Made by a program: the position numbers and the translations under genes
Shown: in pieces, positions 13,814 to 20,627 of the stretch
Layout: each line of letters starts with the position of its first letter
How positions within the stretch are numbered: the first letter of the stretch is position 1
The notes under the pieces: model-generated
Database searches by the model: none
What the model was told of the DNA's origin: nothing
Seen by the model: only the letters and a program-made list of their open reading frames with translations
DNA from: Bacteroidota bacterium
GTDB lineage: Bacteria; Bacteroidota; Bacteroidia; UBA8524
DNA length: 64,000 nucleotides
Direction of reading: 5' to 3'
Assembly (NCBI GenBank): GCA_016124735.1
Contig: WGMZ01000018.1
Span: forward strand, 62,001-126,000

Positions 13814-15577
13814 ATGAAAAAGAGCAATCTACGCAACCGCGCACTGCTTGAAATGGCCATTGTTCTGGCTTTATTGATTGCGGGCAATTATATTTCCTCC
13901 CGTGTTTTTCATCGCTTCGACTTTACCAAGGAAAAGCGCTATACATTATCAGAGGCATCCAAGCACCTTGCCGGCGACCTCGACGACGTGTTCTATGTGA
14001 AAGTGTTTCTGGATGGAGATGACCTGCCGGCAGCATATAAAAATCTGCGCAATGCAACCAAAGAGATGCTGGACGAGTTCCGTTACGCATCCAATGGTAA
14101 CATAGAATACGAAATATACAATCCTTTAGAAGGCTTGAAGGGGGATGAACTCAGGAATGTTCTGGTAGAACTCAATCAAAAGGGACTTCAGGTAACAGAC
14201 CTGTATGAAAAAACCAATGACGGAAGCAGGCAGAAGTTAATTGTGCCTGGCGCCCTGGTTTACTACAAAGGAGCCGAATACCCCATGCATTTGATTGACC
14301 CGAGCATGACGGTCAACAATCCGGCTACCTTAAATAAGGCGGTAGAAGGATTGGAGTTTACCATCGCAAACACCATACGAAGATGTGTGATGGGCGAACG
14401 TAAATCTGTGGCTTTCATGAGCGGTCACGGTGAATTGCCCGATGCCCAGCTGCTGGACGCAAAAACGCTTTTGGAAGAATACTATATTGTTGATCGGATG
14501 AATCTCAATTTTGATGATTCCGCATTCTACGGTCAGATTCTGGAAGAATTGAAAGGGGTCCGGGAAGATTCGCTTGCTTTTGCTGTAGATCGGCTGATCA
14601 AGAAAAAACTCAATAGCTACGACGCAATCATCTTTGCCAAGCCGCGTATCACATTTGCCGAAAGGGAAAAATACTGGATAGATCAGTACATCATGCACGG
14701 GGGCAAGGTGTTGTGGATGATTGATCCGCTGTTGATTGAAGAAGACTCGCTGATGCGCTATGGTAAGGTATATACCATCGATTACGATCTGAACCTGACC
14801 GATTTATTATTCAAATACGGAGTACGTGTGAACCTAGACGTAGTGCAGGATTACAATAGCCTCATTGTTCCTTTTGCCCGCGAAGGTGGGGGCATAGATC
14901 CGAAGCCCTGGTATTATTTTCCGGTAGTGCCTTCCATGAACAATCATGCCATTAACAGAAATCTCGATTTGACCTGGTTGCAATACCCGGCAACTATCGA
15001 TACCGTGGGATCTCCGACATTGAAAAAAACGGTGCTGTTGCAGTCCACGTCTCTTTCGCGGGTGAGCAACCATCCTGCTGAAATCGATCTGCAAATTGTT
15101 AGAAGACCTCCCGCTGAAGGCTATTTTGGTGATAAATATGAACCGCTCGCTGTATTGGTGGAAGGACAATTTGAGTCTCCTTATAAACTTGCAAACCGCA
15201 AGGAACTGGATCCGGAAAAGACTTTTATCGGTTCGGTGGATAATGGAAAGATGATTGTTATTGGAGATGGAGATTTAATGGCCAACCTGGTTCGCAAAAA
15301 CGGACAATATTACCCGGCAGGATACGATCGGCTTTCGAAAAAGACTTTTGCCAACAGGCAGTTCTTTATGAATTGCATGGATTATTTGGTAGATGATTAT
15401 GGCTTGATAGAGGTGCGTAACAAAGACATTCAATTGCGCCTGTTAGACAAGGATAAAATCAATCTGCCCAAAGAAGAAAACAAATGGAAAGTGCTGAATA
15501 TGGTATTGCCCATTGTTCTCATTCTGGTGTTTGGCCTGATTAACGGATTTATCAGAAAACGAAAATATGAGCGATAA
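13814..15577 (+). CDS. gldG: Gliding motility ABC substrate-binding protein GldG
   Basis: A 587-residue ABC_transp_aux-family protein: an N-terminal membrane helix (LLEMAIVLALLIAGNYISSR), a large periplasmic part including KEKRYTLSEASKHLAGDLDD, SVAFMSGHGELPDAQ and GGKVLWMIDPLLIEEDS, and a C-terminal helix (VLPIVLILVFGLINGFIRKR). This two-helix layout is the known shape of GldG. A GTG at 13805 overlapping the gldF stop would add three residues; the ATG at 13814 is chosen because it directly precedes the basic MKKSNLRNR leader. Confidence 0.94.
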   Translation: MKKSNLRNRALLEMAIVLALLIAGNYISSRVFHRFDFTKEKRYTLSEASKHLAGDLDDVFYVKVFLDGDDLPAAYKNLRNATKEMLDEFRYASNGNIEYEIYNPLEGLKGDELRNVLVELNQKGLQVTDLYEKTNDGSRQKLIVPGALVYYKGAEYPMHLIDPSMTVNNPATLNKAVEGLEFTIANTIRRCVMGERKSVAFMSGHGELPDAQLLDAKTLLEEYYIVDRMNLNFDDSAFYGQILEELKGVREDSLAFAVDRLIKKKLNSYDAIIFAKPRITFAEREKYWIDQYIMHGGKVLWMIDPLLIEEDSLMRYGKVYTIDYDLNLTDLLFKYGVRVNLDVVQDYNSLIVPFAREGGGIDPKPWYYFPVVPSMNNHAINRNLDLTWLQYPATIDTVGSPTLKKTVLLQSTSLSRVSNHPAEIDLQIVRRPPAEGYFGDKYEPLAVLVEGQFESPYKLANRKELDPEKTFIGSVDNGKMIVIGDGDLMANLVRKNGQYYPAGYDRLSKKTFANRQFFMNCMDYLVDDYGLIEVRNKDIQLRLLDKDKINLPKEENKWKVLNMVLPIVLILVFGLINGFIRKRKYER

Positions 15578-16628
15578 GAAGAGAAAGGTATTGAACAGAA
15601 CATTGTTCATTCTGAGTATGGTATTGGTATTGGCTGTGGTGCTTATCCCCCTGATTGACAAAAATTTCAAACAAACTCTCAAGCCAGAACTGACAAATTT
15701 TGCTGTAGAAAACCCGGATCAGGTAACGGAGATTTTCATGGCGTCGAAGTCCAATGAAAAGTCCTATATCAAGCTGGTGAAAGACGACAAAGGCGTTTGG
15801 ATGGTGAATGGCCAATTTCCGGCCGAGAAGAGCAAAGTCGACATGCTTTTGTATGAATACCTGGCGAAACTGAAGATGAAAAACCCACTTCCGAACGCTG
15901 CCCTGGACAATGCTTTGAAAAGCATGGCGGCGAATGCCATCAAGGTAGAGGTTTATAAGGGGACGCATAAAGACAAGGTTTTCTATGTGGGCAAGAATGC
16001 AATCGACGACATGGGCACCATTATGATGCTGGAAAATTCTTCCCGGCCTTTTGTGGTGCATATTCCTGGTTTTATGGGCTATCCTGCTGCGATTTTCAAT
16101 CTGAATCCGAATAAATGGAAAAGTTTGAATTTGTTTCAGACCAGCATAGTGGAAACGAAATCCGTTCAAATGTTCTATCCCTCGGATGCGGCTGGTTCTT
16201 TCACGATTGAAAAAGAAGAGAAGGCACTGAAGATTATTCCTTTTGTGTTGGAAGATATGTTGCCAGCGGCCAATTTGAATATCCCTTTGCTTAAACAATA
16301 TACAGCCACATTTGAGAACCTGAATTATGAAGCAGTGTACGAAGGACTGGCTGCAAAGCTTGCTGATTCTGTCGTGCATCACTCAAAGCCGTTTGTGGTA
16401 ATAACATTGACCAGAACCGATGGCAAAGTACATGAACTGAAAATTTTCAAGAAGCCGGTGGCAGGCGATTCACCTCAAACCGACAATTATGGAAATCCGG
16501 CCACCTATGATCTGGATCGTTTTTATGCCGTATTGGATGGAAATGAATCAGACATCCTTTCTGTACAGAGTTTTGTTTTCAAGAATATCTTTAAGCGGTA
16601 TCCCGATTTCTTTTCGCAAGCGTCGTGA
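15567..16628 (+). CDS. DUF4340 domain protein
   Basis: A 353-residue protein with one N-terminal membrane helix (LFILSMVLVLAVVLIPLID) and a periplasmic DUF4340 region (ESYIKLVKDDKGVWMVNG-like segment, PAEKSKVDMLLYEYLAKL, NLFQTSIVETKSVQMFYPSD). DUF4340 genes commonly follow an ABC ATPase, permease and GldG-like gene in many bacteria. It overlaps the end of gldG by 11 bases and so closes the gldAFG operon. Its role in the complex is unknown; a periplasmic accessory is the simplest guess. Confidence 0.9.
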   Translation: MSDKKRKVLNRTLFILSMVLVLAVVLIPLIDKNFKQTLKPELTNFAVENPDQVTEIFMASKSNEKSYIKLVKDDKGVWMVNGQFPAEKSKVDMLLYEYLAKLKMKNPLPNAALDNALKSMAANAIKVEVYKGTHKDKVFYVGKNAIDDMGTIMMLENSSRPFVVHIPGFMGYPAAIFNLNPNKWKSLNLFQTSIVETKSVQMFYPSDAAGSFTIEKEEKALKIIPFVLEDMLPAANLNIPLLKQYTATFENLNYEAVYEGLAAKLADSVVHHSKPFVVITLTRTDGKVHELKIFKKPVAGDSPQTDNYGNPATYDLDRFYAVLDGNESDILSVQSFVFKNIFKRYPDFFSQAS

Positions 16629-16773
16629 AGTTTTAGAGTTGAGCGTGCAGGGTTGAGAGTTTTAGACGTCGGGTGTTGTAGCCTTTAAGGAACCTTCAGG
16701 CCGATGAGCGAGCTTGTTCAGTTGAAATGGTTTCGCCTACAACTTCCAAAGGGAGAATTGCGTTTAAAGAGGT
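16629..16773. other. Intergenic stretch with short direct repeats
   Basis: The 145 bases after the DUF4340 gene hold no open frame that I can support. GTTTTAGA occurs twice within 40 bases, each next to a GTTGAG block, which suggests a small degenerate repeat. No terminator hairpin with a T-run is evident. Confidence 0.4.
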
Positions 16774-16983
16774 ATGACTCCCAAATCCATCTATCTCGAA
16801 ATTCCAAAACCTTGTCATGAAAACTGGGATCAAATGACTCCCGTTGAACAAGGAAGGTTTTGCAATTCCTGTTAGAAAAATGTGGTTGATGCTACGGAAT
16901 GGTCCTTGGTGGACCGGTACTTATTGTTGATGGTAGCACAGTTGTCAAAAGAAAAAGATGGTGGCAGTTCTGGCGCTAACTAG
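16774..16983 (+). pseudogene. Decayed small CHENW/Cys-motif protein gene
   Basis: Reading from the ATG gives MTPKSIYLEIPKPCHENWDQ, then MTPVEQGRFCNSC, a TAG stop, and KNVVDATEWSLVDRY. This is the N-terminal signature of a common Bacteroidota family (CHENWDxMTPxxxGRFCxxCQKxVVDF), in which the residue after the last Cys is Gln. CAG to TAG is a single C-to-T change at the stop. After VVD the match fades, and the frame ends at 16983. No intact copy is in the window. Function of the family is unknown; the two CxxC-like cysteine pairs suggest metal or redox binding. Confidence 0.75.
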
Positions 16984-19900
16984 CGAATAATCGTAATGGT
17001 TCCGGTGTAGCGCTCTGGTTTTTTGTAATAAAACTTATAGTCGAAAATCACATAATACACACCGGCTGGAAGTACGGTATAATCGGGTTGTGTACCGTTC
17101 CAGTTAATACCGACATTGTGGTAACCATCTGTGGTGCTTTCGTAAACCAGTTGTCCGTAGCGGTTAAAGATGCGGCAATGGTAATCCTCTTCGTAGTCAA
17201 TCTCAATGTCAAAAGCATCGTTCAACTGATCTTTGTCGCCCGGAGTAAACACATTGGGGATGAAGATATAGGGCTTCCATTTGAGAAAAACCCTTTTGCA
17301 GGCGGTGTCTTGGCATCCCTCTTTATTGGTGACGTAAAGACAAAATTCATAATGACCCTGGTTAGGGTAAAAATTTTCTTTTGGATTTTCTTTGGTGCTC
17401 GACCGGCGAAATCCTGAATCGATGCTATGGAAATCCCAAAGGTATTTTACGGCGTTGGTTGATTCATTAACAAATTGAAAATGCAGGGGGCCCGACTTTA
17501 GGCTGTCAATCGTAAAAGCTGCATGAACATCTGTGACTACAATATCTTTGATTGCTGTATCCGGACAGGTAATTCCATAAATGGGGTGGGGTGCGTATGT
17601 CGGTGTATATTGAATGGTTTAATTTCCTGCTTTACGGTAGACATAAGATTGATTCCGATTCGATGAGGAACGTTGTCCTTCGTCTCCAAAATCCCAATTG
17701 TGTTTGGTATAAGTTAAATCTGCCAGAGATACGGCATAAAAAGATTGATCAACACAGATTTTTGCTGGGATACCGAATTGAGCTTTTGGCTTCGGCAGCA
17801 CAACCACCTGCCTTTTTTGAGGAGCTTGGGAATAGGTTGCGGAGCAAAACTGTTTGTTCCCAGTACTTATATTGTTAATACTATCGGCACCGTACAGGTG
17901 CAATGTATAGATGCCAGGTTGATCGTAGGTGAAGACAGTATTGCTGTCGTACTTCGTGGCGAGCGTGCTTCCCTTAGGATCACCAAAATACCAAATCCAC
18001 TGACTGCATTCTTTCGAGGTATTTTTTATCTCAACAGTCAGGGGGACACAACCAAAAGTATCGGTTACAAACTCAAAGGAAGGCTCTGGTCCAATGACGA
18101 ACAAATTAGTAGAGGTACTATCCACACAACCAAAGTTGCTTGTCACTTTTAATTGAATGGTAAACGGTCCGAATTGATTGTAAAAGTGAAAGGGGTCTTT
18201 CACGGTATTGATGCGTGTATCATCTCCGAAGTCCCAGGCGTAGGTGTCAATCTTTTCTCCGGATGATAGACTTATCACAGACGATGAATCAAACATCTGC
18301 AGTATTTCAGAACACAGCAGACTATCGTGGCGACCGTGGATTCCGGCTTTGATTCCTCCCACCTGAATAGAGCGTGTCAGAGAATCGACACAGCCGATGC
18401 TGTCGATGGCAATCATCTTAATCTGATAATTCCCCGGTAGGGCGTAACATTTGGTATTTGAGGTGCTATCCACACTGCTGTCGCCCCAATGCCAAATAAC
18501 TTTTTCGGGCCTTTGAGACATCGACCAATAGTTGAGACTATCACCGGTATAATATACGGAGTCTCGCATGCTAACGCAGGATCCGGCGCAGATAAACGGA
18601 AAGTTCGCAAGGTGCATGTTAAACCCGATACTCACGTCGATGGTGTCGTTGTTTTGGCACCCATGGGCATTAACAGCCGCGACCACAACTTTAAATTTCC
18701 CTTTTTGCGTAAAAGTATGCTTCATTTTAATGGGCAGTGAATCGGACTGATTTAACTGAATCGTGTCGAATGTTCCGTCGCCCCAATCCCAGGACAATGA
18801 CGTTAATTCCGTGTTGTTCTGATCGCTTATTTCAAATTCCATTGGGCTGCCAAAGCAAGTATGTTGTTGTGAAATTTTAAGTTCCGGGATTGGTTGTTTG
18901 TTCAAATGCAGGAACTTATGGTACCAGATTGTGTCAGTGCAAATTGGATTGCTTGTGATTCCCGGGCATTCTTTGTTGTCGTTGCCCAGTAATACGACTC
19001 CAATGGTTATCCAGCCGGTACTGTCTGCTGTTGCTGGGTAGAAGCCTTTGACCTGGTTTTTATTCCAATGATTTCCCGCAGCTGAATCGGGATTCAACAT
19101 GTATTCAGAACATGTTCCAACCGAATAATTGACGGTTCGATCCGGACCGGTGCCAGTGCAACTCTTATTTCCGGTGATTGTGAGTGGAATGGTGGTCGGG
19201 TCTTCTCTTCCTACCAGCACATTGGTCCAAATTTCATCTTTGCATCCGGAAATAGTATCGTATACCATCATATGGACGTGGTAACAGTCTTCTGCCTGAA
19301 AAAAATGGATAGGATGCGAATCCTTGCTGAAGTTGCAATTACTTCCAACATTCTGATTCAAGGCTGTGTGGGTGGTGCAAGACGCTGCGTATTTATCGCC
19401 GAAATCCCATAAATGGTTAATGCTTAACATGTTTGTTAAGTCGCTATTGTCGCAGAAATAAGTGCTGTCGCTAACCGTACACAAACTTTTATTCCGGCTT
19501 TTGATATGAGCGATGGGGCCTCGCAAGATCAGTGTGTCCGGATAGAATGTTTTTTGGCAATTCCCACTGCTCACTTTCAAACGAATTGGAAAGGTTCCCG
19601 GATGATCCTTTGTAAACGAAGTGCTGCGACTTTTGGATAGAAATCGATAACCTGTTGAAGGAGATTCTTCATACGACCATTCCCAGGTCTGCGTTTTATT
19701 CCAGGTTTCACTCAGAGAGAATGTGGTGCCCATGCAACCTGCATCAATGGGTATATCCGGATTAAAATGAATGGGTGTATAATTGACTAAATCGGGCTTT
19801 CTTGTGGTATCAATGCAAGTGTTGCCTTTAACAGATACCAGCGATACGGAATATTTACCGGAATCTTTATAAACGTGGCAAGGCGGATTCCAGTTGACCG

Positions 19901-20627
19901 AGTCGATGGTCCCGTCGCCAAAATTCCAATACCATGCACTTTTTTGTGATGTGTCGTATGTGGAGTGATTCTTAAGGCATAAGACCACACTGTCGCATTG
20001 TTCTTTGAATTCGTAACTGAATTTTGGGGCGCCGTCATGGTAAATTTCAACTGTATCATAAGCGCGGGAATAGCATCCCTTGGTGTCTGTAACCTCCATT
20101 ACCAGGGCAAATTTGCCGGAGCCCGGATACGAATAGCAAGACTTATTGTTTACGGAAGGGTTATAGGTTGTCTGCGCAAACCCATCTCCCCAAAGAATAT
20201 TTCTGCTTGCAAGTCCGGAACCGGTTTGTCCGGGTGTTGAAGTATCTTCAATGCAGACTTCGTTTTGTGAAAAGCAATAATTGGATGATCCCATTACTTT
20301 CAAACCAGCAACAGGGCGGTCATGTACAAAAATATTTTTGGAGGCAGTACAGGATGAGCCATTCGGAAATCGAACAATAACAGAGATGGTTTTTGCTCCC
20401 AGTTGATTAAACTGAGCAGTTGGTTGATCTAATGTGGAAGTATTATTGGTGCCTAACTGCCAATAATAGGAAGAAGCTTGCCCTCCGGGAATTATTGCTT
20501 CAAATCCAATGAAGTCATCTTTGCAAACAATTGAATCGGATTTTATTTGACAGGATTGTCCGCTGACTCGCTGAATTAAGAGCAACAAGACGAAGGTGAA
20601 AAATAATTTTTGCAAGGAGAGGTTCAT
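16980..20627 (-). pseudogene. PKD-repeat gliding/T9SS surface protein, broken by one stop
   Basis: A 1215-codon frame interrupted by one in-frame TAA at 17619-17621. The first part (1002 residues) has a signal peptide (LFFTFVLLLLIQRVSGQ) and many PKD-like domains (WYWNFGDGTIDSVNWNPP, YYWQLGTNNTS, WDWGDGTFDTIQL, YAWDFGDDTRINTVKDPFHF). After the stop the same frame continues for about 212 codons through KYLWDFHSIDSG to a CHU_C/T9SS type B sorting domain (IFIPNVFTPGDKDQLND, CRIFNRYGQLVYES, LPAGVYYVIFDYKFY). The stop falls in YRKAGN*TIQYTP, where PKD domains have Tyr, so TAT/TAC to TAA is the likely lesion. Without the C-terminus the product could not be exported by T9SS. Confidence 0.88.

Follow-up and report, generated by a model that had tools for sequence, protein, structure and literature searches.

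A lone in-frame TAA separates a PKD-repeat surface protein from its CHU_C sorting domain in a Bacteroidota genome, probably through a recent nonsense mutation

Proteins that combine PKD repeats with a CHU_C (PF13585) type B T9SS sorting domain, such as the SprB-like adhesins, are the closest described counterparts of the gene analysed here. Type B secretion through the T9SS in F. johnsoniae needs motifs of the C-terminal domain (CTD) (PMC12618676). When read through, the gene has the same architecture as the SprB-like PKD/CHU_C proteins, and full-length relatives of this kind occur in the same genus, family and class. What these proteins lack is the in-frame TAA, which here cuts off CHU_C together with the last PKD domain. 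The second point of comparison is the ordinary point-nonsense pseudogene of bacteria, with which the locus shares a lone stop in an intact frame, an intact syntenic ortholog and the presence of paralogs. Nothing distinctive sets it apart from such pseudogenes; a consensus error, considered below, is an unlikely though tenable alternative.

The gene lies on the minus strand of the window, by which we mean the whole stretch of DNA that was analysed (64,000 nucleotides of contig WGMZ01000018.1). The features of the locus are as follows:

17619..20627 (-): upstream part with predicted signal peptide and PKD repeats, 1002 aa, ending at the TAA (ORF; PKD_4 E 5e-54)
17619..17621 (-): in-frame TAA within the penultimate PKD domain (Tyr, His or Phe in relatives)
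16980..17618 (-): downstream part, which runs for 212 codons to a TAG and encodes a PKD domain as well as an intact sorting domain of the CHU_C / type B T9SS kind (frame, CHU_C match)
16774-16983 (+): decayed gene fragment in the spacer, with an internal TAG, next to the broken gene's 3' end
16629..16979 (no strand assigned): spacer of approximately 350 bp between convergent genes, only about 4 bp in the same-genus genome G001

Beyond the TAA, 212 further codons without a stop follow in frame, up to the TAG at 16980-16982. As the initial annotation had claimed, a single in-frame stop thus splits a PKD/CHU_C surface protein, and joining the 1002-residue and 212-codon parts takes no frameshift. 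The resulting read-through protein (P0001, 1215 aa) comprises a predicted signal peptide, PKD repeats and CHU_C, and no other stop or frameshift was found across the 1215-codon frame. The open downstream frame is not a product of chance, because shuffling the 212-codon stretch gave a stop-free copy in none of 20,000 trials, its codon usage is coding-like (score 0.16, compared with 0.12 upstream of the TAA) and it matches CHU_C. A relic start site for the downstream part was not found. We rejected the possibility that this part is a separate gene, since its first in-frame start (GTG, 17250-17252) is located inside the CHU_C domain itself.

Profile searches placed the sorting domain on the far side of the stop. 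The downstream part scored 54.9 bits against CHU_C (cut-off 27) and 31.8 bits, under the cut-off of 35, against TIGR04131, whereas the 1002-aa product has PKD-type matches only. The type B CTD is therefore encoded by the read-through frame and lies outside the predicted product, which bears out the loss of the T9SS signal proposed earlier. The genome has a T9SS: it encodes SprA (2472 bits) and two GldM homologs, all over the family cut-offs; the GldM genes stand side by side (G000:C52, 54341-55819 and 56915-58438). Among the 32 CHU_C matches of the genome only the one in this gene is severed by an internal stop, as judged by the length of the open frame, with one case at a contig edge (C47). 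A candidate second orphan CHU_C (G000:C29) was discarded, because it proved to be a full protein of 225 aa that has a signal peptide itself.

The full length of the read-through protein can be aligned (49% identity) with a protein encoded at a syntenic locus of the same genus (G001:C3). This gene is the positional ortholog: it lies between aroE and a cluster of gldA, gldF, gldG and one further gene, exactly as in the window, and at both loci a polyprenyl-phosphate transporter gene is found beyond aroE. Other full-length relatives come from the same genus (G001:C5, 41%), the same family (G004, 44%; G003, 35%), the class level (G014, 31%) and the genome itself (paralog C4, 39%). The paralog pairs instead with G001:C5, with 63% identity and conserved neighbours. 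A scan of the named genomes yielded distant relatives only. All full-length relatives keep the C-terminal CTD, and none of those aligned has an internal stop. Since the PKD/CHU_C gene is 47-49% identical to its G001 counterpart and the neighbouring genes are 56-92% identical, this gene is fast-evolving.

The codon at the position of the TAA was compared in seven relatives, including the paralog of the same genome. The codons were TAC, TAC, TAC, CAC, TTC, TAT and TTT, that is, Tyr, His or Phe, and none of the seven has a stop. The expectation of Tyr at this position held for the syntenic ortholog (TAC) and, more loosely, in the form of an aromatic residue, for the relatives as a group, in which His (CAC) and Phe also occur; the proposed comparison of the same locus in close relatives thus returned a sense codon. 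The ortholog locus (L040) is uninterrupted through the stop region, and the one break it has, an NN gap, is remote from the site. An independent disruption of the ortholog near residue 150 was considered and rejected, because it corresponds to this scaffold gap with its repeated flanks: at L040 10700-10740 the flanks are duplicated on either side of the gap, which splits the ortholog artificially.

On the far side of the broken gene's 3' end the window also differs from G001. The decayed fragment within 16629-16983 reads MTPKSIYLEIPKPCHENW...CNSC*KNVVDAT, and elsewhere in the genome it matches only a stretch of 47% identity within a 309-aa open frame (G000:C19). The convergent gene at 15567-16628 (+) follows directly after gldG, overlapping its end. 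It encodes 353 aa, is conserved in the same genus (71%) and has no Pfam or NCBIfam match.

Conservation on the two sides of the stop gives an indication of the age of the lesion. Identity to the ortholog is 55.7% downstream of the stop and 54.8% over residues 700-1002, and the gene has kept 45 of 48 downstream and 97 of 108 upstream residues that are invariant in six relatives. A relative-rate test with one outgroup gave a slight window-specific excess of changes in the downstream part (27 vs 13, p=0.04). Relaxed selection is nevertheless unsupported, because the excess was absent with three of five outgroups and the downstream and upstream parts did not differ (Fisher p=0.22). Assuming about five new lesions for each 1% of substitution under neutral decay in a gene of this length, the lesion would be younger than about 0.6% neutral divergence. 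The lone stop, the downstream part conserved like the upstream part and the intact syntenic ortholog all agree with the earlier view that the lesion is recent. Judged from the sequence, this fast-evolving gene for a PKD-repeat surface protein has probably lost its function through one nonsense mutation of very recent date, and would now be a young pseudogene or a null allele at the strain level.

The main rival explanation takes the TAA for an assembly error or a consensus artefact of a strain mixture, with the gene intact in the organism. The source genome is a 53-contig assembly, the change concerns one base only in an otherwise fully conserved gene, and the scaffold gap in the same-genus ortholog is itself an assembly artefact. 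On the other hand, single-base errors in short-read consensus sequences are presumably rarer than true point pseudogenes, and the window gives little sign of general error. When the 64 kb were scanned for places where a lone stop links coding-like stretches, eight sites emerged; checked against the ORF list, the seven others proved to be gene junctions or to lie opposite longer ORFs. With no other intragenic lone stop found, the assembly is not generally error-ridden. Searching the literature for premature stops in metagenome-assembled genomes was of no help. In our estimate a sequence error is unlikely, but much likelier than any of the explanations that follow.

Other explanations accept the stop as real and the gene as still in use. 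It is very doubtful that the TAA is leaky or reversible, so that either translation or selection on variation standing in the population would tune how much of the PKD adhesin is displayed at the surface. More specifically, programmed or suppressor-tRNA readthrough could yield some full-length protein, and the CTD downstream of the TAA is indeed still intact. Readthrough is disfavoured, however, because UAA is the least leaky stop in a published ranking (PMC5289835), none of the 32 tRNA matches obtained from the genome carries the anticodon TTA or CTA, and the stop occurs in none of the seven relatives compared at the site, so that readthrough would not be conserved. The readthrough site suggested in the initial annotation is accordingly highly improbable. 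Reassignment of TAA was rejected, as this codon is the ordinary end of 17 of the 32 long ORFs in the window.

The suggestion of a phase-like switch fared no better. A reversible on/off switch, by phase variation or cassette exchange, might be read into a 14-bp perfect inverted repeat (16520-16533 and 17729-17742), but inversion through this repeat would move the TAA along with the segment, so the stop would stay. The arms lie in two convergent genes that are unrelated, and each encodes FYAV; the PKD protein of the relative has PFTLIS where the window has SFYAVS; the repeat is probably due to chance. Moreover, the change resembles a base substitution, no short tandem or slippage repeat was found at the site, and no second copy of the region (duplicate or silent cassette) was found in the genome. 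We regard such a switch as scarcely credible. Hardly any weight can be given to an adaptive truncation with a 1002-aa product functional in itself (e.g. as a periplasmic PKD protein), since, intact as the domains upstream of the TAA are, the stop interrupts a PKD domain instead of coinciding with a domain border, and all full-length relatives retain the CTD.

If a recent nonsense mutation is the cause, translation would stop after residue 1002, within the penultimate PKD domain. The product would retain a Sec signal peptide (predicted by eye) and lose the last PKD domains and CHU_C. By analogy with the published work on type B CTDs, it may reach the periplasm but would be neither exported by the T9SS nor anchored. 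The downstream frame, with no plausible start site or signal peptide, would be a silent relic, and the intact paralogs in the genome may buffer the loss.

The case looks like an ordinary loss of function (or sequence error) that involves no new mechanism, and its significance would extend little past annotation. Annotation should treat the locus as a single gene with an interruption, not as two genes, and the 212-codon part does not merit an entry of its own as a small T9SS protein. Provided that the base is correct, the gene would be another example of the rapid loss of single members in large T9SS adhesin families.
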